A stretch of DNA of 64,000 nucleotides from Modestobacter sp. VKM Ac-2984 (GTDB lineage Bacteria; Actinomycetota; Actinomycetes; Mycobacteriales; Geodermatophilaceae): positions 1 through 64,000 of the forward strand of contig NZ_JAPVBJ010000007.1 in assembly GCF_026967985.1 (NCBI RefSeq). Direction: 5' to 3'. Below are positions 41,840 to 54,704 of this stretch, one piece after another. Position 1 is the stretch's first letter. The number at the start of each line of letters is the position of its first letter. Both the position numbers and the translations under genes were made by a program. The notes below the pieces were generated by a model, which saw only the letters and a program-made list of their open reading frames with translations, searched no databases and was not told the origin of the DNA.

Positions 41840-42097
41840 CAGCTCACCGTAGTGACCGAGGTCTCCCCGCCGGCCCCGGCACCGCCACCGGCGGGACCAG
41901 GCGCTGGTGGCGGCCGCGCGCGGGTCGACCCGCCCGGTCGACACGCCCGTGGCGACACGCCAGTGGGACGGGAGTGACGGGTGTGGCGGACTCGCAGCTG
42001 GTCAGCGCCGCGGGGCATGGTGGAGGCAGTTGCTGGGCAGGACGACTGCACGTCGCAGAGCAGTCGTCCACCGGGCGCTGGAGAACGGGGGACCGCC

Positions 42098-43315
42098 GTG
42101 CCGCTGACGCGCCCGGTCGCCCGCCCGGCGCTGACCGCCGGCCTCGCGCTCGGCGCGATCCTGGTGGCCGGGGTCGCCGCGGCCGGTCCAGCCGCTGCGC
42201 TGGAGGACCCGCGGCGCCCGACCGCGTCGGTCACCCACGGCCCCAGCTGCGGCCCGGCCGTCGTCCGGGTCCAGGTCACCAACGGCACCGAGCCGCACCG
42301 GGTCGCCCTGGTCTTCGACGGGGTCGAGCAGCAGGACGTCGCCGACCTCGACCCCGGCGAGCAGGTGGAGCTGACCAGCGAGGACGTCGACTGGGGCGTC
42401 ACCGTCGAGGTGTCGGTGACGGTCGCGGACCCGGACGGGACGGTGGAGCAGCCGCTGCACTTCCAGACCTACACGCGGCCGAGCGAGGAGGACTGCGCGG
42501 CGGTCATGCCGCCGCCCACCCCGGTGACGCCGACCCCGACGTCGGATCCGTCGACGCCGACCGCCACCCCGGGGCCGTCGACGCCACCTCCGTCGAGCCC
42601 CCCTCCCTCGACCCCCGAGCCCTCGACCCCTGAGCCCTCGACCCCCGAGCCCTCCACTCCTGAGCCCTCGACGGCCGAGCCGTCGACCCCTGCGCCGTCC
42701 AGCACGACGCCCCCTCCCGTGCCGGCCAGCCCGACGCCGGCCCCCGTGTCGTCCAGCACGACGCAGTGGCCCAGGACCCCGTCCCTGCCCGCGACGCCGC
42801 TGCCCACCGCAGCGGACCGCACCACGTCGGCACCCACGGCCTCCAGCGGTGCGCCGTCGAGCACGTCCTCGACGGAGGCCGACGCCGGGTCCGGTGGCCC
42901 GTCCCGTTCCAGCGGTGACGCGAGCTGGTCCCCGGTGGCGTCGGTGTCGCCGGGCGGGGTGGTGACCGTGCGGGCCAGCGGCTTCCTGCCGGGTGAGCCG
43001 GTCGAGGTCCGCCTGGCCGGCGACGGGGAGCTGCTCAGCACCGTCACCGCGGCGGCCGACGGCAGCGTCGAGGCGGTCGTCCAGATCCCGCGCGGTGTCG
43101 CGCTGGGTGAGGCCACGCTGGAGTTCGTCGGCGGCGAGTCCGCGGCGACCGCCGAGGTCGACCTGGAGGTGGCCGCCCGCGCCGCGCCGGTGACCGAGCA
43201 GACCGGCCAACCGGTGGTGCTCGCCGCCGGGCTGGCCCTGCTCACCGCGGCCGGCGCGATCGGGCTGGTGGGTGTGCGCCGGTCGGGGAGCGGGCACCCC
43301 GGGGGGCGACGGTGA
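42098..43315 (+). CDS. Mucin-like surface protein with C-terminal membrane anchor
   Basis: A 405-residue secreted protein. It has a signal peptide (about residues 1-36, 'AGLALGAILVAGVAAAGPAAA'), a small N-terminal beta domain with two cysteines ('GPSCGPAVVRVQV' and 'EEDCAAV'), a Ser/Thr/Pro stalk of about 150 residues with PSTPE repeats, a second beta domain ('SPGGVVTVRASGFLPGEPVEVRL', Ig-like) and one C-terminal membrane helix followed by arginines and glycines. There is no LPXTG. GGGGGA seven to ten bases upstream supports GTG 42098. The stalk is a likely O-glycosylation site. The next gene's start overlaps its stop (GTGA). Confidence 0.8.
   Translation: MPLTRPVARPALTAGLALGAILVAGVAAAGPAAALEDPRRPTASVTHGPSCGPAVVRVQVTNGTEPHRVALVFDGVEQQDVADLDPGEQVELTSEDVDWGVTVEVSVTVADPDGTVEQPLHFQTYTRPSEEDCAAVMPPPTPVTPTPTSDPSTPTATPGPSTPPPSSPPPSTPEPSTPEPSTPEPSTPEPSTAEPSTPAPSSTTPPPVPASPTPAPVSSSTTQWPRTPSLPATPLPTAADRTTSAPTASSGAPSSTSSTEADAGSGGPSRSSGDASWSPVASVSPGGVVTVRASGFLPGEPVEVRLAGDGELLSTVTAAADGSVEAVVQIPRGVALGEATLEFVGGESAATAEVDLEVAARAAPVTEQTGQPVVLAAGLALLTAAGAIGLVGVRRSGSGHPGGRR
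42598..42681 (+). repeat. PSTPE-coding tandem repeat
   Basis: A 15-base unit (approximately CCCTCGACCCCTGAG) recurs about five times and encodes PSTPE. It lies in the stalk of the surface protein. Confidence 0.75.
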
Positions 43316-43890: not shown

Positions 43891-44032
43891 ACGAGGGCCC
43901 CGCCGCCCACCCCGGCCGCCGCCCGTCGTCCCTGCTGCTCACCCTGACCGGGTCCGCCACGTCCGGGTGGACGGCCGGACAACTTAAAGCCCGTAGTGTT
44001 TCGGAGACGATCTTCGGGGCACGATTCCGGAC

Positions 44033-45532
44033 ATGTCCGGTGCCCTCTGCAACTGCACGGTCGTCGTACCGACGATCGGACGGCCGTCGCTGGGCGTTCT
44101 CCTCGACGCCCTGGCCGACGCCACCGGCCCGCGTCCGGCCGAGATCGTGCTGGTCGACGACCGGCCCAGCGGCGAACCGCTGCGCCCGGAACGCCCGGGC
44201 CTGCCCCCGGTCCGGGTGGTGCGCACCGGCGGTGGCGGGCCGGCGGTGGCCCGCAACCTGGGCTGGCGCACCGCGCGCACCGAGTGGATCGCCTTCCTGG
44301 ACGACGACGTCGTCCCCGACCACGACTGGTTCGCCCGGCTCGCCGATGACCTCGCCGCCCTGCCCGCCGACGCGGCCGGCACCCAGGGCCGGGTGCGGGT
44401 CCCGCTGCCGGACGACCGCCGCCCCACCGACTGGGAGCGCGGCACCGCGGGGCTGGCCACCAGCAGCTGGATCACCGCAGACCTGGCCTACCGCCGGTCC
44501 GCACTGGCCGCGGTCGGCGGGTTCGACGAGCGCTTCCCCCGGGCCTTCCGGGAGGACTCCGACCTGGCGCTGCGGATCATGGACACCGGGTCGGCGCTGA
44601 CCCGTGGCGAGCGGTGGATCACCCACCCGGTCCGACCGACCGACCGCTGGGTGTCCGCCCGGGTGCAGGCCGGCAACGCCGACGACGTCCTCATGCGCCG
44701 GCTGCACGGGCCGACCTGGCGGGCGCGCGCCGACGCCGCCGTCGGCCGCCGTCCCCGCCACCTGGCCGTCACGGCGGCGGCGGTGGCCGCCCTCGGGCTG
44801 GCCGCCGCGGGGCGGCCGCGCGCCGCGGCGCTCGCGGCCCTGGGCTGGGCCGCCGGCACCGCCGAGTTCGCCTGGGCGCGGATCGCCCCCGGGCCACGGG
44901 ACCGCGCCGAGGTCACCACCATGCTCGCCAGCAGCGCGCTGATCCCGCCGCTGGCCAGCTGGCACTTCCTGCGCGGCGCCCTGCAGCACCGCACCGTGAT
45001 CCCGTGGCGCGGCCTGCCCGACCTGGTCCTCTTCGACCGCGACGGCACGCTGGTGCACGACGTGCCCTACAACGGCGACCCGGCCCAGGTGCGCCCGGTC
45101 GACGGCGCCCGCGAGGTGCTGGACGCCCTCCGCGCGCGCGGCGTGCGGATCGGCCTGGTCACCAACCAGTCCGGCGTGGGCCGGGGGCTGATCACCCGGG
45201 CGCAGGCCGATGCGGTCAACGCCCGCGTCGCCGAGCTGCTCGGCCCCTTCGACACCGTCCAGGTGTGCGCGCACGCGCCCGAGGACGGCTGCGACTGCCG
45301 CAAGCCGGCTCCCGGCATGGTCAAGGCCGCCTGCGCCGAGCTCGACGTCGACCCGTCCCGCGTCGTCGTCATCGGTGACATCGGTGCCGACGTCGAGGCC
45401 GCCACCGCGGCCGGTGCCGCCTCGGTCCTGGTGCCGACGACGGTCACCCGCCCCGCCGAGGTCACCGCCGCGGCACACCGGGCGCCCACCCTGGTCGACG
45501 CGGTCGAGGACGTGCTGGCAGGCGCCTGGTGA
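44033..45532 (+). CDS. Fusion: GT2 glycosyltransferase + GmhB-like heptose-bisphosphate phosphatase
   Basis: A 499-residue two-part protein. Residues about 1-240 form a GT2 (GT-A) domain: 'CTVVVPTIGRPSLGVLL', 'EIVLVDDRP', the metal-binding 'FLDDDVVPDHDWF' near residue 90 and 'GFDERFPRAFREDSDLALR' near 165. A hydrophobic helical stretch (about 245-310) links to a HAD domain (about 325-499): 'LVLFDRDGTLVHDVPYNGDP', 'LVTNQSGVGRG', 'CDCRKPAPGM' (the Cys/His zinc loop typical of GmhB) and 'VVVIGDIGADVEAA'. GmhB removes the C7 phosphate of heptose 1,7-bisphosphate. It is the first gene of the seven-gene heptose operon. Confidence 0.86.
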   Translation: MSGALCNCTVVVPTIGRPSLGVLLDALADATGPRPAEIVLVDDRPSGEPLRPERPGLPPVRVVRTGGGGPAVARNLGWRTARTEWIAFLDDDVVPDHDWFARLADDLAALPADAAGTQGRVRVPLPDDRRPTDWERGTAGLATSSWITADLAYRRSALAAVGGFDERFPRAFREDSDLALRIMDTGSALTRGERWITHPVRPTDRWVSARVQAGNADDVLMRRLHGPTWRARADAAVGRRPRHLAVTAAAVAALGLAAAGRPRAAALAALGWAAGTAEFAWARIAPGPRDRAEVTTMLASSALIPPLASWHFLRGALQHRTVIPWRGLPDLVLFDRDGTLVHDVPYNGDPAQVRPVDGAREVLDALRARGVRIGLVTNQSGVGRGLITRAQADAVNARVAELLGPFDTVQVCAHAPEDGCDCRKPAPGMVKAACAELDVDPSRVVVIGDIGADVEAATAAGAASVLVPTTVTRPAEVTAAAHRAPTLVDAVEDVLAGAW

Positions 45533-46530
45533 CGCGCACCGTCCTGGTCGCCCGGCTGGACAACGCCGGCGACGTGCTGCTGCAGGGCCCGCTGGTGCGC
45601 GCCGTGGCCGCCGGCGCCGACCGGGTGGTCTTCCTGGCCAGCCCGCAGGGCACGGCGGCGGCCGAGCTGCTGCCCGGCATCGACGACGTGCTGACCTGGC
45701 ACTGCCCGTGGATCGACGGCTCGCCGCAGCCGGTGGACGCCGAGGACATCGCCGCGCTCGCCGACCGGGTCCGCGCCCTCGGCGTCGAGGAGGCGGTGGT
45801 GAGCACCAGCTTCCACCAGTCGCCGCTGCCGCTGGCCCTGGTGCTGCGCACCGCGGGCGTGCGGCGGATCTCCGCGATCAGCGTCGACTACCCCGGCTCG
45901 CTGCTCGACGTCCGGCACCGGGTGGAGGACGACCTGCCGGAGCCGGAACGGGCGCTCTCACTGGCCCGCGCCGCCGGCTTCGAGCTGCCGGCCGGGGACG
46001 ACGGGAAGCTCGCCGTGCGCCGTCCGCTGCCGGCCACCGGCCAGGAGCCGGGCTACGTCGTCCTGCACCCCGGTGCCTCGGTGCCCGCGCGGGCCTGGCC
46101 GGTCGAGCGCTGTGCCGAGGCGGTCGAGGCGCTCACCGACGCCGGCCGGCGGGTGCTGGTCACCGGCGGGCCGGGGGAGCGGGCGCTGACCGCGGCCGTC
46201 GCCGGCCGGCGCGGCACCGACCTCGGCGGGGCCACCACGCTGGCCGAGATGGCCGCGCTGCTCGACGGTGCGGCCGCCGTCGTCGTCGGCAACACCGGCC
46301 CGGCGCACCTGGCCGCCGCCGTCGGCACGCCCGTCGTCTCCCTCTTCTCCCCGGTCGTCCCGGCCGTGCGGTGGGCGCCCTACGGTGTGCCCACCGTGCT
46401 GCTCGGCGACCAGTCCGCCCCGTGCCGCGACACCCGGGCCCGCGAGTGCCCGGTGCCCGGTCATCCCTGTCTGACGTCGGTGAGCCCAGCCGACGTCGTC
46501 GCCGCCGTCGACAAGGTGGTCGCACCATGA
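45529..46530 (+). CDS. Glycosyltransferase family 9 (heptosyltransferase-like)
   Basis: A 333-residue GT9 protein like WaaC/WaaF. 'VLVARLDNAGDVLLQGPLVRAV' (split, N-terminus), 'VVLHPGASVPARAWPVERC' (about 178-196) and 'VVVGNTGPAHLAAAVGTPVVSLFSP' (split, about 245-268) are the family signatures, the last binding the ADP-heptose. It should transfer a heptose from the activated donor made by this operon. GTG/ATG overlap (4 bases) couples it to the fusion gene before it and to the next gene. Confidence 0.88.
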   Translation: MTRTVLVARLDNAGDVLLQGPLVRAVAAGADRVVFLASPQGTAAAELLPGIDDVLTWHCPWIDGSPQPVDAEDIAALADRVRALGVEEAVVSTSFHQSPLPLALVLRTAGVRRISAISVDYPGSLLDVRHRVEDDLPEPERALSLARAAGFELPAGDDGKLAVRRPLPATGQEPGYVVLHPGASVPARAWPVERCAEAVEALTDAGRRVLVTGGPGERALTAAVAGRRGTDLGGATTLAEMAALLDGAAAVVVGNTGPAHLAAAVGTPVVSLFSPVVPAVRWAPYGVPTVLLGDQSAPCRDTRARECPVPGHPCLTSVSPADVVAAVDKVVAP

Positions 46531-47492
46531 ACGTCCTGCTCTGGCACGTGCACGGCTCCTGGACGACGTCGTTCGTCCAGGGCACCCACGACTACCTGCT
46601 CCCGGTGACCCCGGATCGCGGCCCCGACGGCCTGGGCCGCGCCCGCACCTGGGAGTGGCCCGCGTCGGCCCGCGAGGTCACCCCCGACCAGCTGCGCGAC
46701 GAGGACGTCGACGTCGTCGTGCTGCAGCGCACCCGCGACCTCGAGCTGGTCCGCGAGTGGCTCGGCCGCGAGCCCGGCCGCGACCTCCCGGCCGTCTTCC
46801 TGGAGCACAACGCCCCCGACGGGGCGGTGCCGAACACCCGGCACCCGCTGGCCGACCAGCGCGAGATCCCGATCGCCCACGTCACCTTCTTCAACCAGCT
46901 CTTCTACGACAACGGCAGCGCCCCGACGACGGTCATCGAGCACGGCATCGTCGACCCGGGCGAGCGGTACACCGGCGAGCTGGCCCGCGCCGGCGTGGTG
47001 GTCAACGAGCCGGTCCGCCGGGGCCGGTACACCGGCGGCGACCTGCTGCCGCTGCTGTCCGCGGCCGCGCCGCTGGACGTGTTCGGGATGGGCCTGGCCG
47101 GGCTGCACGAGCGCTACGGGCTGGACCCGGACCGGGTGGGCCTGTACGACGACCCGCCGCAGGCCGCCATGCACGACGAGCTCGCCCGCCGCCGGGTCTA
47201 CGTGCACCCGGTGCGCTGGACCTCCCTGGGACTGTCGCTGCTGGAGGCGATGCACCTGGGCATGCCGGTCGTCGGGCTGGCCACGACCGAGGCCGTCGAG
47301 GCGGTGCCGGCCGAGGCCGGGGTGCTCTCCACCCGGCCCGAGCGGCTGGCCGAGGCGGTCCGGCACTTCGTCGCCGAGCCGGACGCCGCCCGGCTGGCCG
47401 GCAAGGCCGCCCGCGCCGCGGCGCTGGAGCGGTACGGGCTGGACCGCTTCCTGGCCGACTGGGACACGCTGCTGAGCGAGGTGACCCGATGA
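46527..47492 (+). CDS. Glycosyltransferase (GT4-like)
   Basis: A 321-residue protein with 'LLWHVHGSWTTSFVQG' at the start, 'RDLPAVFLEHNAPDGAVPN', 'HVTFFNQLFYDNG' and 'TTVIEHGIVDPG' in the acceptor half, and 'VYVHPVRWTSLGLSLLEAMHLGMPVVGLA' (split) as the donor-site region. It is shorter than most GT4 enzymes. The start overlaps the GT9 gene (ATGA). It appears in the heptose operon in place of a classic heptosyltransferase III. Confidence 0.8.
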   Translation: MNVLLWHVHGSWTTSFVQGTHDYLLPVTPDRGPDGLGRARTWEWPASAREVTPDQLRDEDVDVVVLQRTRDLELVREWLGREPGRDLPAVFLEHNAPDGAVPNTRHPLADQREIPIAHVTFFNQLFYDNGSAPTTVIEHGIVDPGERYTGELARAGVVVNEPVRRGRYTGGDLLPLLSAAAPLDVFGMGLAGLHERYGLDPDRVGLYDDPPQAAMHDELARRRVYVHPVRWTSLGLSLLEAMHLGMPVVGLATTEAVEAVPAEAGVLSTRPERLAEAVRHFVAEPDAARLAGKAARAAALERYGLDRFLADWDTLLSEVTR

Positions 47493-48697
47493 GGATCGAC
47501 CTGGTGAGCGAGCACGCCTCGCCGCTGGCCGCGATCGGCGGCGTCGACGCCGGCGGGCAGAACGTGCACGTGGCGGCGCTCGCCGCCGGCCTGGCCCAGC
47601 GTGGGCACCAGGTCACCGTGCACACCCGCCGGGACGACGCCGCGCTGCCCGACCGGGTGACCACGGCGGACGGCTACGACGTCGCGCACGTCGCCGCCGG
47701 GCCCGCCCGGGTCGTGCCCAAGGACGAGCTGCTCCAGCACATGGCGACCTTCGCCGACGTGCTGCGCGCCGAGTGGTCGACGACCCGGCCCGACGTCGTG
47801 CACGCGCACTTCTGGATGAGCGGCCTGGCCTCGGTGCAGGCCGCGTCCGGCCTCGGCATCCCGGTGCTGCAGACCTTCCACGCGCTCGGCTCGGTCAAGC
47901 GCCGGCACCAGGGCGACGCCGACACCTCGCCCGAGCAGCGGATCGACCTGGAACGCGGGCTGTGCGCCGACGTCGACCACGTGGTCGCCACCTGCAGCGA
48001 CGAGGTGTTCGAGCTGCGCCGGCTCGGGCTGCCCAGCGACCGGGTGTCGATCGTGCCGTGCGGCGTGGACACCGACGAGTTCACGCCGGACGGGCCGGTC
48101 GCGCCGCGCTCCGGCCGTCCCCGGCTGCTGGTGCTGGGCCGGCTGGTCGAGCGGAAGGGCCAGGAGGACGCCGTCCGGGCGCTGGCCGCCGTCCCCGACG
48201 CCGAGCTGGTCGTCGTGGGCGGCCCGCCGACCGACGAGCTGGACACCGACCCGGAGGTCTGCCGGCTGCGGGCCGTCGCCGCGGAGCTGGGGGTCGCCGA
48301 CCGGCTGGTCTTCACCGGCGCGGTGTCCCGGGCCGACGTGCCGGGCTGGATCCGCTCGGCCGACGTCGTCCTGGCGGTGCCCTGGTACGAGCCCTTCGGC
48401 ATCACCCCGCTGGAGGCGATGGCCTGCGGCCGGCCGGTCGTGGCCACCGCCGTCGGCGGGCTGGTCGACACCGTCGCCGACGGCGTGACCGGCGACCTCG
48501 TCCCAGCACGTGACCCCGACGCCCTCGGGCAGGCGCTGGCCGCCCTGCTCGCCGACGACGAGCGGCGGGTCGCCTACGGCGCCGCCGGCGTCACCCGGGC
48601 CCGGACCCGCTACCGCTGGTCCCGGGTCGTCGCCGACACCGACGCCGTGTACCGGCAGGTGGTTTCCGCCCGGACCCCGGTGGAGGCCGCCCGATGA
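47489..48697 (+). CDS. Glycosyltransferase family 4
   Basis: A 402-residue GT4 enzyme. 'IDLVSEHASPLAAIGGVDAGGQNVHV' (split, N-terminus) with the GGQ loop resembles sucrose-phosphate-synthase/MshA-like GT4 proteins. 'VVHAHFWMSGL', 'VLQTFHALG', 'VSIVPCGVDTDEFTP', 'LLVLGRLVERKGQEDAV' and 'VPWYEPFGITPLEAMACGRPVV' (split, E-x7-E) follow in order. The start overlaps the preceding stop (ATGA). Confidence 0.9.
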   Translation: MRIDLVSEHASPLAAIGGVDAGGQNVHVAALAAGLAQRGHQVTVHTRRDDAALPDRVTTADGYDVAHVAAGPARVVPKDELLQHMATFADVLRAEWSTTRPDVVHAHFWMSGLASVQAASGLGIPVLQTFHALGSVKRRHQGDADTSPEQRIDLERGLCADVDHVVATCSDEVFELRRLGLPSDRVSIVPCGVDTDEFTPDGPVAPRSGRPRLLVLGRLVERKGQEDAVRALAAVPDAELVVVGGPPTDELDTDPEVCRLRAVAAELGVADRLVFTGAVSRADVPGWIRSADVVLAVPWYEPFGITPLEAMACGRPVVATAVGGLVDTVADGVTGDLVPARDPDALGQALAALLADDERRVAYGAAGVTRARTRYRWSRVVADTDAVYRQVVSARTPVEAAR

Positions 48698-48720
48698 ACC
48701 CCCTCGCTGGAAGGACCGTC

Positions 48721-49389
48721 ATGAGCACCGCACCCTCCTCCGACCTCGAGGTCGTCTCGCCCGACACCTGCACGCACCTCACCGGGCACGACCACGTCGC
48801 CTCGCTGCGCACCGCGCTGCGCGGCCTCGACGAGCAGGTCGAGACGCTGGACCGCTGGGGCCGGCTGCTCGCCGACGTGCTGACCGGGCCGTCCCGCGGC
48901 CGGCTGCTGGCCGCCGGGAACGGCGGCAGCGCGGCGCAGGCGCAGCACCTCACCGCCGAGCTGGTCGGCCGCTACCGCGCCGACCGCCCGCCGTTCTCCG
49001 CGATCTGCCTGACCGCCGAGACCTCGTCGCTGACGGCGATCGCCAACGACTACCCGGCCGACGAGCTGTTCGCCCGGCAGGTCGAGGCACACGGCCGGGA
49101 CGGCGACGTGCTGGTGCTGCTGTCGACCAGCGGCCGCAGCCCCAACGCGGTCGCCGCGGCCCGCCGGGCCCGCGAGTGCGGGATCACCGTGCTGGCGATG
49201 ACCGGCCCGGCGCCCAACCCGCTGGCCGCCGTCGCCGACGAGACGGTCGCCGTCGACTCGCCGTGGACCGCGACGGTGCAGGAGTGCCACCTCGTCGCGC
49301 TGCACCTGCTGTGCGCCGCCTTCGACGCCGCCGTGCTCGCCGACTCGCCCCGGATCTCCACCCGCAGCCACGTCGAGGTGGTCTCGTGA
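48721..49389 (+). CDS. gmhA: Sedoheptulose-7-phosphate isomerase, SIS domain (GmhA)
   Basis: A 222-residue SIS-domain protein. 'LLAAGNGGSAAQAQHLTAEL' (about 60-79), 'LTAIANDY' and 'VLVLLSTSGRSPNAVAAARRA' (split) are characteristic of GmhA, which turns sedoheptulose 7-phosphate into D-glycero-D-manno-heptose 7-phosphate. ATG 48721 has GGAAGGA six bases upstream and is preferred; an ATG at 48694 overlaps the preceding stop and would add nine residues. It supplies HldE, the next gene. Confidence 0.88.
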   Translation: MSTAPSSDLEVVSPDTCTHLTGHDHVASLRTALRGLDEQVETLDRWGRLLADVLTGPSRGRLLAAGNGGSAAQAQHLTAELVGRYRADRPPFSAICLTAETSSLTAIANDYPADELFARQVEAHGRDGDVLVLLSTSGRSPNAVAAARRARECGITVLAMTGPAPNPLAAVADETVAVDSPWTATVQECHLVALHLLCAAFDAAVLADSPRISTRSHVEVVS

Positions 49390-50783
49390 CCCGCGGGGTC
49401 TCCCGGCCGATCGTCGTGGTCGGTGACGCCCTGCTGGACGTCGACCTCGTCGGGACGGCGTCCCGGTTGACCCCCGACGCCCCGGTGCCGGTGGTCGAGG
49501 ACGTCGAGACCCGCGAACGCCCGGGCGGGGCCGCACTGGCCGCCGTGCTCGCCGCACGGTCCGCCGGCGGCCGGGAGGTCGTGCTGGTCACCCCGCTCGC
49601 CGACGACGAGGGCGCCGCCCGGCTGCGCGCCCTGCTCGACGGCCGGGTCCGGCTGATCGAGATCCCGGCCAGCAGCACCACCCCGGTCAAGCAGCGGATC
49701 CGGGTCGGTGACCACTCCGTCGCCCGGCTGGACAGCGGGGGAGCGGTCGCCACCTTCGGCGCGCTCCCGGCCGCCGCCGCGACGGCGATCGGGGACGCCG
49801 CCGCCGTGCTGGTCGCCGACTACGGCCGCGGCACGACGTCGGCCCCCGACGTGCGGGCCGCGCTCTCCGCCGCCTCGGGCCCGGTGGTCTGGGACCCGCA
49901 CCCCCGCGGCGCGGAGCCGGTGCCCTCGACCCGCCTGGTCACCCCCAACGGTGCCGAGGCGACCCGGGCAGCCGGCCTGGACGTGACCGGCGAGGGGCTC
50001 GCCGCGGTCGGCGCCCGGGCGGAGGCGCTCATCGCGCACTGGGGGGTCGGCGCCGTCGCGATCACCCTCGGTGCCCGCGGCGCCCTGCTCTCCTACGGCG
50101 AGGGCGCGCCGATGGTCGTCCCCGCCACCCCGGTCACCGGCGGTGACCCGTGCGGCGCCGGTGACGCCTTCGCCGCCGCGGTCACCGTGGCCCTGGCCGG
50201 TGGCGCGGTCACCGGCGAGGCGGTCACCGCCGCGGTCGCCGCGGCCGGGGCGTTCGTCGCCCGCGGCGGGGCCACCGCCTGGGACGCGGAGCCGGCCGTC
50301 GCGGACCCCGACACCGACGCGCCCCGCCCGGCGCCCCGGCTGGCCGCGGTGCTGGACCGGGTGCGCGCGGCCGGGGGCACCGTCGTGGCCACCGGCGGCT
50401 GCTTCGACCTGCTGCACGCCGGGCACGTCGCCACCCTGCAGGCCGCCCGCGGGCTCGGCGACTGCCTGGTGGTCTGCATCAACTCCGACGACTCGGTGCG
50501 CCGGCTCAAGGGCCCGACCCGCCCGCTGGTCACCGCTCCCGACCGGGCGCGGGTGCTGGAGGCGCTGGAGTTCGTGGACGCCGTCGTCGTCTTCGACGAG
50601 GACACCCCGGCGCAGGTGCTCGAGCAGGTGCGCCCGGACGTGTGGGCCAAGGGCGGTGACTACGCCGGCGCGGACCTCCCGGAGGCCGCGGTGCTGCAGA
50701 CGTGGGGCGGGCAGGCCGTCGTCCTGCCCTACCTGGACGGCCACTCGACCACCGCCCTGGTCGAGCGCTCCCGCGTCTGGTGA
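49386..50783 (+). CDS. hldE: Bifunctional heptose 7-phosphate kinase / heptose 1-phosphate adenylyltransferase
   Basis: A 465-residue two-domain enzyme. The N-terminal PfkB-type kinase (about 1-305) has 'VVVGDALLDVDLVG', 'VADYGRGT' and the catalytic 'GDPCGAGDAFAAAVTVAL'. The C-terminal nucleotidyltransferase (about 333-465) has 'GGCFDLLHAGHVATLQAAR' with the HxGH motif and 'VRPDVWAKGGDY'. Together these give heptose 1,7-bisphosphate and then, after GmhB, ADP-heptose. Length matches E. coli HldE. The start overlaps gmhA's stop (GTGA). Confidence 0.93.
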   Translation: MTRGVSRPIVVVGDALLDVDLVGTASRLTPDAPVPVVEDVETRERPGGAALAAVLAARSAGGREVVLVTPLADDEGAARLRALLDGRVRLIEIPASSTTPVKQRIRVGDHSVARLDSGGAVATFGALPAAAATAIGDAAAVLVADYGRGTTSAPDVRAALSAASGPVVWDPHPRGAEPVPSTRLVTPNGAEATRAAGLDVTGEGLAAVGARAEALIAHWGVGAVAITLGARGALLSYGEGAPMVVPATPVTGGDPCGAGDAFAAAVTVALAGGAVTGEAVTAAVAAAGAFVARGGATAWDAEPAVADPDTDAPRPAPRLAAVLDRVRAAGGTVVATGGCFDLLHAGHVATLQAARGLGDCLVVCINSDDSVRRLKGPTRPLVTAPDRARVLEALEFVDAVVVFDEDTPAQVLEQVRPDVWAKGGDYAGADLPEAAVLQTWGGQAVVLPYLDGHSTTALVERSRVW

Positions 50784-51748
50784 CCGACCCCACGCCGACA
50801 GAGATGGCCATTCCTGTCGACGGGCAGCCGGTGGCGGTGGTGTTGCGGCCGCTGGGGTTGGGGGACCTGCTCACCGGGGTGCCGGCGATCCGCGGCATCC
50901 GGGCCGCGGTGCCCGACCACCGGCTGGTGCTGGCCACCACCCGGGCGCTGGAGCCGCTGGCCGCGCTGATCGACGCCGTCGACGAGGTGCTGCCCGCCGT
51001 CGAGCTCGAGCCGCTGGACTGGGCCGGCCCGCCGCCGGAGCTCGCCGTCGACCTGCACGGCAAGGGCCCCGCCTCGCACGTCGTGGTGGCCGGCCTGCGC
51101 CCGCAGCGGCTGCTCACCTTCGACAGCCCCGGCTACCCCGGGCCGACCTGGTACGCCGACGAGCACGAGGTGCGCCGCTGGTGCCGGCTGGTCTCCGAGG
51201 GGCTGGGCGTCGACTGCGATCCGGACGCCCTGGACCTCACCGTCCCGGACGTCGAGCCGCCGGTGCGGGACGTCGCGGTCGTGCACCCGGGGGCGGCGTT
51301 CCCGGGCCGGCGCTGGCCGGCGGAGCGGTTCGCCGCCGTGGCCCGGCACCTGGCCGCCCAGGGGCTGCAGGTCGCGATCACGGGCGGCCCGGCCGAGCGG
51401 GAGCTCGCCCTGGCCGTGGCCGCGCAGGCCGGGCTGGGGGACGGCGCCGTGCTGGCCGGCCGGACGACGTCCCTCGAACTGGCCGCCGTGGTCGCCGCCG
51501 CCCGGGTGGTGGTCTGCGGGGACACCGGGGTGGCCCACCTGGCGACCGCCTACCGCCGTCCGTCCGTGGTGCTCTTCGGCCCGGTGTCACCGGCGCTGTG
51601 GGGGCCGCCGCCCCGCGCCCAGCACGTCGTCTGCTGGTACGGCGACGGCACCGGTGACCCCTGGGGGACGACGCTGGACCCCGCCCTGGCCACGGTCACC
51701 GTCGACGAGGTCACCACAGCCCTCGACGCCCTCCTCGCCCGCACCTGA
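50780..51748 (+). CDS. Glycosyltransferase family 9 (second heptosyltransferase-like)
   Basis: A 322-residue GT9 protein. 'VVLRPLGLGDLLTGVPAIRGIR' (split), 'LAVDLHGKGPASH' and 'VAVVHPGAAFPGRRWPAERFA' (split, about 173-192), then 'VVCGDTGVAHLATAYRRPSVVLFGP' (split, about 242-266). It differs clearly from the GT9 at 45529, so the two probably add different residues. Last gene of the operon; its start overlaps hldE's stop (GTGA) and a terminator follows six bases after its stop. Confidence 0.88.
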   Translation: MTDPTPTEMAIPVDGQPVAVVLRPLGLGDLLTGVPAIRGIRAAVPDHRLVLATTRALEPLAALIDAVDEVLPAVELEPLDWAGPPPELAVDLHGKGPASHVVVAGLRPQRLLTFDSPGYPGPTWYADEHEVRRWCRLVSEGLGVDCDPDALDLTVPDVEPPVRDVAVVHPGAAFPGRRWPAERFAAVARHLAAQGLQVAITGGPAERELALAVAAQAGLGDGAVLAGRTTSLELAAVVAAARVVVCGDTGVAHLATAYRRPSVVLFGPVSPALWGPPPRAQHVVCWYGDGTGDPWGTTLDPALATVTVDEVTTALDALLART

Positions 51749-51753
51749 TCCGG

Positions 51754-51787
51754 CCCCTCTGCAGGGTGGGGGCAGAGGGGTCCTTCT
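51754..51787 (+). terminator. Rho-independent terminator after the heptose operon
   Basis: CCCCTCTGC (51754-51762) and GCAGAGGGG (51772-51780) form a perfect 9-base stem with a 9-base loop, followed by TCCTTCTT. The minus-strand VWA gene ends just beyond at 51788, so it may work in both directions. Confidence 0.85.
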
Positions 51788-53449
51788 TCAGCCGCGGCGG
51801 CGGATGGCGTCGAACAGCACGCCCTGCAGGTCCTCGGGGTCCAGTGCCTGGTAGGCCGCACCGCCGGTCGCCTCGCCGATCTGCTCCAGCGCGGCGAGGT
51901 CGGCGTCGGGGCCCAGCGCGATCCCGATGACCTTCACCGGGCGCTCCGGGTCGGCCTCGGCGCGCAGGGTGTCCAGCAGGGCGGGCAACTCGATGGCCGC
52001 CGCGTCGTCGTCGTCGGTCCCGTCGGTGATGAGGACGACGCTGTTCACCGCGTTCGGGTCGTAGGCCTCCCGCGCGGTGCGGACGGCGGCGAGGGTCGTG
52101 TCGTACAGCCCGGTGCCGCCGGGGGCGAGCAGGTTGGGCAGGGTGTCGAGCTGCTCGTCGACCAGCTCCCGCTGCGTCCGGCCACCGGCGTCGGCCCCGA
52201 GGGCGCGCAGCGGGGCCAGCTCGACCCAGTCGCGCTCGCCGTCGAGCTGGTAGGCGAAGCCCCAGACGCCGCCGGAGTAGGAGTCCGGCAGCAGGGTGAG
52301 TGCGCTCTTGGTGGCGTCGCGAGCCAGGGTGGCGCGGGTGCCGTCGCCGGCCGGGGCGTTCATCGAGGTGGAGACGTCGATGACGGTGAGCAGCCGGGAC
52401 GGGGTGGCCAGGCTGGACAGCCGGCCGAGCAGGGCCTGCACCGCGGCGGCGTCCAGCTCCAGCGCCTCCGGCGCCTCTGCCTGCACACCGGTGCCGGGGC
52501 CGGCGCCCTCGGGCGCGGTGCCGGCGGCGTCGCGGAAGCCGGCGGCCCGGGCCTGCTCGCCGGCCGAGGCGGCGGTCAGCGCGTCGACCACGGCGTCCAC
52601 GGCCGCGGAGTCCTCCTCGGCTGAGGGCAGCCGCAGCACCGGGTAGTCCAGGGACGGAGAGCCCTCGCTCGGGTAGATCGCGACGAGGGAGTCGGAGCCG
52701 GCGGCGCGGTTGGCGGCCAGCACCTCCTGCTCGCTGACCGGCACCAGCGGTGCGTCGGCCCCGTTCTCGGTGCCGGTGGCCAGCGCGTCGGCGACGGTCG
52801 GCACGTCGCCCCGCCCGGCGGCCAGCACGGCCTCGACGACGGCGTTGTCGGCGTCCTCCCCACCGCCGAGCGACTGCCGGACGGCGGCCAGCACGGACAG
52901 CCCCTCGGCGCTGGCGGCCAGGTCGGGCACGGCCAGCGGTCGGCCGGTGGTCAGGGCCTCGCCCCAGCTGGGCGCATCGTCGGTCCAGCCCAGCTCGTCG
53001 GCGGCGGCGCGGCTGGTGGCGAGCACCAGCGGTGAGGTGGCCAGCGACCCGGCCACCTCGAGGTCGGCGCTGCTGGCGCGGGCGGCCCACAGCGAGGAGT
53101 CGGGCACCCACACCTGAGGGAGTGCGTCGGCGCCGAGGGAGCCCAGGGCGGCCAGCGTCTGCAGCGGCTCGGTGGCCTCGACGTCGGCCACGGCGCACGC
53201 GTCGCCGCCCAGCGGCAGCGGCTCGGCCAGCAGCTCCCGGACCAGCGTGTCGAGCTCGGGGGCCACGGTCACCCGGACGGTCTCGGGCTCGTCGCAACCG
53301 GCGGCCTCCGCCGTCCCGGTGTCCGGGCCGGTGGCCCACCAGGCGACGCCGGCGATCAGGGCCAGGGCGACCACGACCGCGAGCCCGGTGAGCAGGGCCG
53401 GTCGGCTGGCCGTCCCGGAACGGGCGGGAGTACGGGCGTGCCGCCCCAT
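51788..53449 (-). CDS. Membrane-anchored solute-binding-like + VWA-domain protein
   Basis: A 553-residue protein. One N-terminal membrane helix (about residues 18-40) is followed by a periplasmic-binding-protein-like domain (about 55-330, 'VRVTVAPELDTLVREL', 'PQVWVPDSS', 'VAIYPSEGSPSLDYPV') and a C-terminal von Willebrand A domain (about 365-553). The MIDAS metal site is intact: 'TVIDVSTSMN' (D-x-S-x-S), the later Thr in 'PGGTGLYDTT' and 'VLITDGTDDDD'. Proteins of this design are common on actinobacterial surfaces. Function is unknown. GGAG seven bases upstream supports ATG 53449. Confidence 0.83.
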   Translation of the reverse strand: MGRHARTPARSGTASRPALLTGLAVVVALALIAGVAWWATGPDTGTAEAAGCDEPETVRVTVAPELDTLVRELLAEPLPLGGDACAVADVEATEPLQTLAALGSLGADALPQVWVPDSSLWAARASSADLEVAGSLATSPLVLATSRAAADELGWTDDAPSWGEALTTGRPLAVPDLAASAEGLSVLAAVRQSLGGGEDADNAVVEAVLAAGRGDVPTVADALATGTENGADAPLVPVSEQEVLAANRAAGSDSLVAIYPSEGSPSLDYPVLRLPSAEEDSAAVDAVVDALTAASAGEQARAAGFRDAAGTAPEGAGPGTGVQAEAPEALELDAAAVQALLGRLSSLATPSRLLTVIDVSTSMNAPAGDGTRATLARDATKSALTLLPDSYSGGVWGFAYQLDGERDWVELAPLRALGADAGGRTQRELVDEQLDTLPNLLAPGGTGLYDTTLAAVRTAREAYDPNAVNSVVLITDGTDDDDAAAIELPALLDTLRAEADPERPVKVIGIALGPDADLAALEQIGEATGGAAYQALDPEDLQGVLFDAIRRRG

Positions 53450-53619: not shown

Positions 53620-54609
53620 TCAGCCGGCCCGGGCCGCGTCACCGCGCTGGGCGGCGAACCACTCCACCGTGCGCCGGAGCCCCTCCTCGGAGGGCACGCT
53701 GGGCTGCCAGCCGAGCACCTCGGTGGCCAGGGTGGTGTCCGGCCGGCGCACCTTGGGGTCGTCGACGGGGAGGTCGACGAAGCCGACCTCGGACGCCGAC
53801 CCGGTGAGCCGGACGATCCAGCGGGCCAGCTCCAGCATCGACAGCTCGTCGGGGTTCCCGATGTTCATCGGGCCGGTCGCGGAGCTGAAGGCCAGCGCCA
53901 GGATGCCGCGCACCGTGTCGTCGACGTAGCAGATGGACCGCGTCTGGGAGCCGTCACCGGCGACGGTCAGCGGCCGCCCGGACAGCGCTTGGCCGACGAA
54001 CGCGGGGATGGCCCGGCCGTCGTCGGCGCGCATCCGGGGGCCGTAGGTGTTGAAGATCCGCACGATCGCGGTGTCGATGCCCTGGGAGGTGCGGTAGGCG
54101 GTGGTGAGCGCCTCGCTGAAGCGCTTCGCCTCGTCGTAGACCCCGCGCGGACCCACCGGGTTGACGTTGCCCCAGTAGTCCTCGCGCTGGGGGTGCTGGA
54201 GCGGGTCGCCGTAGACCTCCGATGTGGAGGCCAGCAGGTACCGGGCGCCCTTTTCCTTGGCCAGGCCCAGCGTGTGCAGGGTGCCCAGGCTGCCGACCTT
54301 GAGGGTCTCGATCGGCATCTTCAGGTAGTCCAGCGGGCTGGCCGGGGAGGCGAAGTGCAGCACCAGGTCGACCGGTCCCGGCACGTGCACGTAGTCGGTG
54401 ACGTCGCAGCGGACCAGCCGGAAGCCGGGGCGCTCCATCAGGTGCAGCACGTTCTGCGGGGAGCCGGTCAGGAAGTTGTCCAGGCAGACCACCTCGACGC
54501 CCCGGTCGAGCAGCTGCTCGCACAGGTGCGAGCCCAGGAACCCGGCACCCCCGGTCACCACTGCCCGGCGGATCTCCCGCGTGCTCCGCACTGCTCCCTG
54601 CACCGCCAT
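53620..54609 (-). CDS. uxs: UDP-glucuronate decarboxylase (UDP-xylose synthase)
   Basis: A 329-residue short-chain dehydrogenase-type enzyme. The NAD motif [12 protein letters not shown] is at residues 18-29, '[11 protein letters not shown]' and '[21 protein letters not shown]' (split) identify UXS over related epimerases, '[14 protein letters not shown]' carries the catalytic Ser/Glu, and '[14 protein letters not shown]' the Tyr and Lys. It makes UDP-xylose from the UDP-GlcA of Ugd (11576). ATG 54609 has GGGAG six to seven bases upstream; an ATG at 54636 is less likely. An imperfect 20-base palindrome lies about 80 bases upstream. Confidence 0.92.
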
Positions 54610-54684
54610 CTGCCGCTCCCGTTCTGCCGAGCCCACGCCGTGCCCGGCGGGTCCCCGCGGCCCTACCCGGAGATCAACTCGCCG

Positions 54685-54704
54685 ACACTTCGATGTCGAA
54701 GCGT
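54685..54704. promoter_or_regulatory. 20-base palindrome upstream of the UDP-xylose synthase gene
   Basis: ACACTTCGATGTCGAAGCGT has perfect CTTCGA/TCGAAG cores separated by TG and a single mismatch in the flanks. It lies 76-95 bases upstream of ATG 54609, where an operator would be expected. The binding protein is not known. Confidence 0.4.

Follow-up and report, generated by a model that had tools for sequence, protein, structure and literature searches.

What would a Gram-positive actinobacterium make with a complete set of genes for ADP-heptose, a pathway familiar from the lipopolysaccharide (LPS) core of Gram-negative bacteria? The question is raised by a 64,000-nucleotide stretch of Modestobacter sp. 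VKM Ac-2984 (positions 1 to 64,000 of contig NZ_JAPVBJ010000007.1; hereafter, the window), a member of the Geodermatophilaceae with a genome of 4.56 Mb in 21 contigs. Positions 44033-51748 of the window hold an operon of seven genes and eight modules (g1 to g7): a fusion of a family 2 glycosyltransferase (GT2) with GmhB, a GT9 enzyme, a GT4-like enzyme, a GT4 enzyme, GmhA, HldE and a second GT9 enzyme. An earlier interpretation made from the letters alone, here called the sequence-only reading, had put the operon forward as a candidate for an undescribed system, but its module order is that of the published cwg operon of Streptomyces coelicolor. We consider it probable that the locus is the Geodermatophilaceae form of a cwg-type operon, making a short, stress-regulated, carbamoylated D,D-heptose envelope glycan.

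The operon proteins were scanned against Pfam and NCBIfam, with curated models judged by their own cut-offs, and motif columns were read from alignments with relatives after dropping sequences with stops or less than 85% coverage. The adenylyltransferase domain of HldE (g6) scores 187.4 bits against TIGR02199 (cut-off 181.5), the sole curated equivalog model passed. The solved relatives of GmhA (g5) are 5i01, 2xbl and 2x3y, the two domains of HldE resemble 5x9q and the heptose-7-phosphate kinase structure 4e84, and the GmhB part of g1 resembles 4pnh, 3l8h and 2gmw. Residues that we take to be catalytic are retained throughout: H85, E89, Q196 and H204 of GmhA in 49/49 aligned sequences, the DxDxT motif and Cys-His-Cys-Cys set of GmhB in 102/102, and the GAGD and HxGH motifs of HldE in 107/107. 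Both GT9 enzymes carry the GD and (D/N)TGxxH motifs of their family. In g2 (structural relatives 3tov, 1psw and 2gt1), Asp15 of GD and His260 are present in 112/112 sequences and the Gly of NTG in 105/112; in g7 (3tov and 1psw), Asp29 of GD is present in 95/96, with one gap, and DTG and His253 in 96/96. The complete ADP-heptose route proposed by the sequence-only reading is thus borne out, with GmhA, HldE, GmhB and heptosyltransferase-family enzymes all keeping their motifs; the GmhB domain is present as described, and can now be placed in the C-terminal portion of a fusion protein.

It is the comparison with cwg (SCO6179-6190) that gives this route a context. Both operons follow the order GT2-GmhB-GT9-GTx-GT4-GmhA-HldE-GT9, with the cwgC to cwgJ modules contiguous in the window, as judged through two stand-ins for S. 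coelicolor A3(2), an S. coelicoflavus locus (L171) and a Streptomyces plasmid locus (L190). The accessible portion of PMC5839063 equates SCO6180-6183 with cwgB-E and SCO6185-6188 with cwgG-J, with transferases among them, and labels cwgD a 'dehydratase', cwgH a 'phosphoheptose isomerase' and cwgI a 'bifunctional synthase/transferase'; cwgD would be the HAD protein, and SCO6179 and SCO6184 are tentatively identified by their position. In the available part of PMC6767563, the 12-gene cwg operon is a sigma-E target, known as such since 2002 (citing Hong et al. 2002), is induced by vancomycin in a partly sigma-E-dependent manner and has a cell wall glycan as its predicted product, while excerpts of two further papers report that salt activates cwgA (PMC13011467) and name cwgA a SigE target (PMC3902916). 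Our literature searches found no paper that places heptose in the cwg product, or that reports any product for the operon, which is no proof of absence. The published 29-base S. coelicolor cwg promoter recurs in L171 with 3 mismatches (0/100 shuffles), and another Streptomyces locus (L162) holds a close copy. By its module order, then, the operon is a variant of a described, apparently chemically uncharacterised system. Several differences set the two apart. A UDP-glucuronate decarboxylase (UDP-xylose synthase, UXS) and a carbamoyltransferase, the first genes of cwg, are both encoded in the Modestobacter genome but outside the operon, the former 1.9 kb downstream in the opposite orientation and the latter on another contig; GT2 and GmhB are fused in the host; and two extra glycosyltransferases at the end of the L190 cluster are not in the host operon.

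The same modules recur widely in Actinomycetota. A search with g3, the diagnostic gene of the system, returned at least 575 stretches at E<=1e-3, the 80 best of which were retained with their names; among these 80 the nearest belongs to Modestobacter sp. VKM Ac-2982 (97%), and the holders include Streptomyces, Micromonospora, Planobispora, Saccharopolyspora and a Nocardioides metagenome-assembled genome. With a module counted as present if its match, anywhere in the locus, exceeded the identity threshold that the analyst had set for it, all eight modules were found in 19/20 loci of the host's own family, 13/20 loci of the phylum and 59/80 named loci (50/56 of those of at least 18 kb). The module set thus recurs when one asks, as the sequence-only reading had advised, whether the seven genes stay together across actinobacteria. 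That reading had also reported near or 4-base overlaps between the genes; the coordinates are exact, all six junctions are 4-base overlaps (ATGA/GTGA) in the window letters, and the arrangement is not due to chance, because other members of the phylum carry these modules in the same order. The 27 named loci grouped with Geodermatophilaceae on the basis of similarity and title (L102-L127 and L129) include short contigs and one locus of unverified organism titled 'Bacillus sp. AZ43' (L117); L062-L081 and L102-L129 come partly from the same genomes, so that counts over them are not independent. The fusion of GT2 and GmhB in a single open frame is found in 19/20 family loci, 25/27 loci of this group and 12/20 phylum loci; in the 53 other named loci the two are fused in 8, separate in 25 and on opposite strands in 6, with one of the two missing in 14.

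Across whole genomes, g3 scores at least 460 bits in 28/296 genomes of the phylum, and HldE reaches at least 175 bits in 28/28 of these versus 11/268 of the others (Fisher 1e-30, a value that, like all co-occurrence counts given here, ignores shared ancestry). Both thresholds were placed at gaps in the score lists, so that the count omits one genome with a 101-bit g3 fragment and five whose g3 scores 262-302 bits, HldE being strong in four of these five. These counts indicate that g3 predicts HldE, yet HldE also exists without g3. Within the family, HldE lies above its cut-off in 76/96 genomes and slightly under it in 7 more (175.7-180.6 bits), and all 17/17 genomes of the same genus pass. A few loci depart from the common pattern: one (L092, 8006-10030) has HldE and GmhA without the other modules, a different heptose pathway perhaps serving a metabolite, and in another (L087, 6334-13047) a divergent HldE gene (39%) lies about 4 kb from a second one that is closer to the operon type (48%). 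Among 72,556 plasmid records, 14 matched g3, and of three contexts opened one, the Streptomyces plasmid p65_CHABEC (L190), holds the whole cluster; this plasmid is linear and was typed as mobilizable, and transposase genes sit at either end of its 21-kb stretch. Recent mobility of the window copy is unsupported, its neighbours recurring in the family.

The two apparent pathway genes outside the operon extend the comparison. A UXS-type short-chain dehydrogenase/reductase (SDR) gene lies near the operon in 22/22 loci of the named Geodermatophilaceae group of at least 18 kb and opens the cluster in Streptomyces loci. In four of 120 loci (L084-L086 and L149) a UDP-glucose dehydrogenase is also present, which would make the UDP-xylose route complete in those four. 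SDR10, a second SDR that often lies between hldE and g7, occurs in 13/20 phylum loci and 19/80 named loci; the host genome has no clear orthologue, the best of 30 matches reaching 37% identity. A carbamoyltransferase of the NodU/TobZ/GdmN type lies within the locus in 38/53 named loci outside the Geodermatophilaceae group and in 0/27 inside it. The host gene, on contig C12, matches 7xb6 and the GdmN and TobZ structures; whereas O-carbamoyltransferases of the TobZ/GdmN/novobiocin type act on antibiotics, the host relative accompanies a glycan operon. With both genes called at E<=1e-60, carbamoyltransferase and g3 are present in the identical 83/96 family genomes and missing from the identical 13, some of which are incomplete; when only genomes with completeness of 90% or more and contamination of 5% or less are counted, each is found in 77/85. 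In 8 of the 83 (genomes G298, G303, G313, G326, G330, G335, G345 and G363) the two share a contig and are no more than about 5 kb apart, and in the remaining 75 they are far apart or on different contigs. This co-occurrence is the strongest new evidence for carbamoylation as a part of the pathway.

The form of the heptose, and its separation from LPS, are suggested by what the genomes lack. HldD exceeds its cut-off in 0/296 phylum genomes, with at most 7 candidates scored per genome (2/14 controls pass), and the best match in the host genome reaches 116.3 bits against a cut-off of 274.6. Because HldD passes its cut-off in none of these phylum genomes and not in the host, the donor is predicted to be ADP-D-glycero-D-manno-heptose; L,D-heptose is unsupported at this cut-off. 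LpxC has no match in the host genome, although 4/14 control genomes, including that of E. coli, do match; other lipid A (Lpx) and Lpt genes were not searched for. On the absence of an LpxC match LPS, and with it an outer-membrane reading, is unlikely, in keeping with the Gram-positive setting without lipid A described by the sequence-only reading. The host set shares with the LPS core pathway the GmhA, HldE, GmhB and GT9 families and their active-site motifs, but differs in lacking HldD above cut-off and LpxC, in GT9 enzymes that fall under the LPS equivalog cut-offs and in the accompanying UXS and O-carbamoyltransferase. A more distant parallel is found on a Burkholderia multivorans plasmid or chromid (L192, 8611-15936), where genes for an SDR, a HAD-IIIA protein, a GT9 enzyme, a carbamoyltransferase, a glycosyltransferase, a GT9 enzyme and a g3 homologue (37.9%) are consecutive, and the annotation places a UDP-glucuronate decarboxylase some 7 kb further along. 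Unlike the host operon, it has no gmhA or hldE annotated in 31 kb, its heptose genes presumably being those of the LPS route; the lack of exactly these two genes fits heptose as the common substrate. Sigma-54 regulators adjoin the Burkholderia cluster, and BON, DUF2795 and DUF4142 genes are near it.

Upstream of g1 the operon carries a family-specific element. The 19-mer CTTMAAGCCCGTAGTGTTT lies 50 to 32 bases before the g1 start codon, with the same placement in aligned relatives, and occurs once in the whole host genome even allowing 3 mismatches. The 20-mer CTTMAAGCCCGTAGTGTTTC is found at up to 2 mismatches in 38/47 loci of the Geodermatophilaceae group (some genomes counted twice); of the nine loci without it, four are truncated upstream (L062, L110, L117 and L129), four are divergent (L067, L068, L072 and L074) and one is an unrelated HldE locus (L076). 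At up to 4 mismatches it is found in 0/76 other loci, and none of six occurrences at 5 mismatches precedes a module. Taking the best 19-mer per upstream, g1 averages 16.91/19 matches, with at least 17 in 31/35 distinct upstreams, against means of 14.89, 14.69 and 13.81 for the SDR, MarR and VWA genes. The gene at 54693 exceeds g1 (mean 17.39, 18 upstreams), but is not counted as an intergenic control because its stretch falls within the divergent SDR coding region. GTTT is followed at 15 or 16 bases by GGG(A/C/T)A in 22/26 distinct upstreams of relatives, with spacings of 12-18 allowed. The short distance from these boxes to the start codon suggests that the transcript may be nearly leaderless, and we take the boxes to resemble the sigma-B/sigma-F promoter class, as a lead only. 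Together with the Streptomyces data, they suggest that the operon would be under stress control in Geodermatophilaceae. As the mark of a regulon the element was rejected, having one copy in the host genome and none around the carbamoyltransferase in L182; likewise, GTTT-N14-17-GGGNA is absent from the 150 bases before the carbamoyltransferase in 20/20 genomes (host and 19 relatives).

In the pathway that we propose, GmhA would convert sedoheptulose-7-phosphate to heptose-7-phosphate, the HldE kinase domain would form heptose 1,7-bisphosphate, the GmhB part of g1 would strip the 7-phosphate and the HldE adenylyltransferase would yield ADP-D-glycero-D-manno-heptose, presumably used in this D,D form. 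The two GT9 enzymes would then transfer one or two heptoses, while GT2, g3 and g4 would attach further sugars, probably including xylose supplied through the neighbouring UXS, and the carbamoyltransferase would decorate the product. The best NCBIfam model for g4 is MshA, at 229.5 bits against a cut-off of 462.5. For g3 the family scan gives a weak GT4-type C-terminal domain, and its AlphaFold2 model (pLDDT 93) matches GT-B/GT4-type folds in the Protein Data Bank at 12-18% identity (best 50 matches); the model gives a high-confidence prediction that g3 is of the GT-B type, although at such identities its donor cannot be read from the fold. The identities of the sugars, the order of transfer, the site of carbamoylation, stress control and envelope location are accordingly put forward here as predictions.

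Several observations weigh against this interpretation, beginning with the curated models. HldE falls under the cut-off as a whole (PRK11316, 272 bits against 521) and far under it in its kinase domain (TIGR02198, 130.5 against 345); GmhA misses both of its models (PRK13936, 160 against 276; TIGR00441, 151.7 against 209.45), GmhB misses PRK08942 (118.6 against 178), and g2 and g7 lie under every LPS heptosyltransferase cut-off. The sequence-only reading had named loss of catalytic residues in HldE or GmhA as a finding that would tell against it; the motifs are kept, with the caution that HldE residue 51 is Leu, in 107/107 sequences, where the HldA structure 4e84 has the Asn of GGAAN. This substitution and the low kinase score mean that the substrate of the HldE kinase could differ, and they therefore mark the actinobacterial kinase, at the level of sequence, as a separate branch. 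Were the kinase to act on another seven-carbon or hexose phosphate, the nucleotide sugar would be something other than ADP-D,D-heptose; we regard this as very unlikely, given the retained active-site motifs of GmhA, GmhB and the adenylyltransferase and the TIGR02199 cut-off passed. On regulation, unlike in cwg, there is no sigma-E-type site (AAC-N15-18-(CGTC/TCTT/GTCT)) from -220 to +30 around the g1 start in the window, where the family-specific element stands instead, and a sigma-E promoter was rejected there; such a site is hit in 3/38 upstreams of that scan (L073, L127 and L111, the first two identical in sequence), and among Streptomyces-type loci a promoter pattern matches in only 3/28. 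Strong HldE, moreover, is found without strong g3 in 11/39 genomes.

The remaining point against our interpretation concerns the destination of the product. By the family scan, none of the seven operon genes encodes a flippase, polymerase, ligase or lipid-carrier protein, so that for the envelope location we depend on what has been predicted in print for cwg. Septacidin and hygromycin B are ADP-heptose-derived Streptomyces antibiotics, and a secreted, heptose-containing small molecule would likewise need no envelope assembly genes; some HldE loci do stand apart from the operon type, whether as HldE and GmhA alone (L092) or with a divergent HldE (L076, L082 and L098). We nonetheless judge a secondary metabolite unlikely: the set is present in 83/96 family genomes with recurring neighbours, where a metabolite cluster would be patchy, those conserved neighbours that were identified are sugar genes (polyketide synthase, nonribosomal peptide synthetase and resistance genes were not searched for), and the Streptomyces counterpart answers vancomycin via sigma-E (PMC6767563, in the part available). 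A second alternative keeps the glycan at the surface but attaches it to a protein rather than to a wall polymer or lipid, the candidate acceptor being the Pro/Ser/Thr-rich product of 41981-43315. Proteins of this type (cluster C16) are encoded upstream in 9/41 loci of a crude neighbour clustering, all in the host's own family, and the fold neighbours of g3 include, among many others, the protein O-GlcNAc transferases SdgB and GtfA. Outside the family, however, no member of C16 was seen, and no oligosaccharyltransferase or PMT is among the seven operon proteins, which makes protein attachment, in our estimate, improbable. We therefore retain the cwg-type envelope glycan as the preferred interpretation.

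The coordinates of the operon and its surroundings are collected in Table 1. The secreted-looking upstream protein is a possible glycosylation target; its frame was missed by the gene caller used in the clustering, and its likeness to C16 was judged by eye. In most core Geodermatophilaceae loci the operon is followed by a VWA-like gene, of which L075 has two copies. The perfect hairpin terminator reported by the sequence-only reading is real as a hairpin sequence but doubtful as a terminator: the RNA fold of -24.4 kcal/mol is equalled or bettered by 43/200 shuffles, a terminator scan finds no site at the hairpin, there is no T-run, and a perfect stem of at least 9 pairs within 80 bases downstream occurs in only 9/34 distinct family downstream regions.

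Table 1. Features of the cwg-type locus in the Modestobacter sp. VKM Ac-2984 window.
Feature	Coordinates	Strand	Description
Upstream protein gene	41981-43315	+	Pro/Ser/Thr-rich, apparently secreted protein with hydrophobic C-terminal segment
Upstream element CTTMAAGCCCGTAGTGTTT	43983-44001	+	Near-invariant 19-mer; last four bases (43998-44001) form a -35-like GTTT box
GGGCAC box	44017-44022	+	-10-like; 15 bases past GTTT, with the g1 start codon 10 bases further
g1	44033-45532	+	GT2 with hydrophobic C-terminal part, fused to GmhB (HAD-IIIA heptose-bisphosphate phosphatase); cwgC+cwgD equivalent
g2	45529-46530	+	GT9 heptosyltransferase-family (PF01075, 86.5 bits); cwgE equivalent
g3	46527-47492	+	Compact, predicted GT-B glycosyltransferase, WHVHGSWTT motif; presumed cwgF position; diagnostic gene
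g4	47489-48697	+	GT4 glycosyltransferase; cwgG equivalent
g5	48694-49389	+	GmhA, sedoheptulose-7-phosphate isomerase (SIS); cwgH equivalent
g6	49386-50783	+	HldE, PfkB kinase and adenylyltransferase (heptose-7-phosphate kinase/heptose-1-phosphate adenylyltransferase); cwgI equivalent
g7	50780-51748	+	GT9 heptosyltransferase-family (PF01075, 101.7 bits); cwgJ equivalent
GC-rich hairpin	51752-51782 (approx.)	+	Between convergent genes; candidate bidirectional terminator without T-run
VWA-like gene	51788-53449	-	553 aa protein, convergent with the operon; VWA-like by eye
UXS	53620-54636	-	UDP-glucuronate decarboxylase (UDP-xylose synthase), 349 bits to UXS structure 2b69; presumed cwgA equivalent; separate transcription unit

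Taken more broadly, it is possible, if not yet probable in our view, that hundreds of Gram-positive actinobacteria, most Geodermatophilaceae among them, channel ADP-D-glycero-D-manno-heptose into a stress-induced, carbamoylated and probably xylose-containing envelope oligosaccharide. A carbamoyl-heptose inner core is present in some LPS, and the actinobacterial glycan would be its Gram-positive counterpart. ADP-heptose is a known innate-immune signal (PMC10948575, in the part available), usually tied to Gram-negative bacteria; if the interpretation holds, these bacteria would be possible sources of it, and neither heptose nor ADP-heptose could serve any longer as a Gram-negative marker. The comparative data give the cwg product a testable chemistry, with D,D-heptose, an O-carbamoyl group and probably xylose, and indicate that the genes of the set are co-inherited even when one of them is located elsewhere in the genome. 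For a widespread group of soil and stone actinobacteria, they would thereby provide a structure to seek for the envelope glycan.

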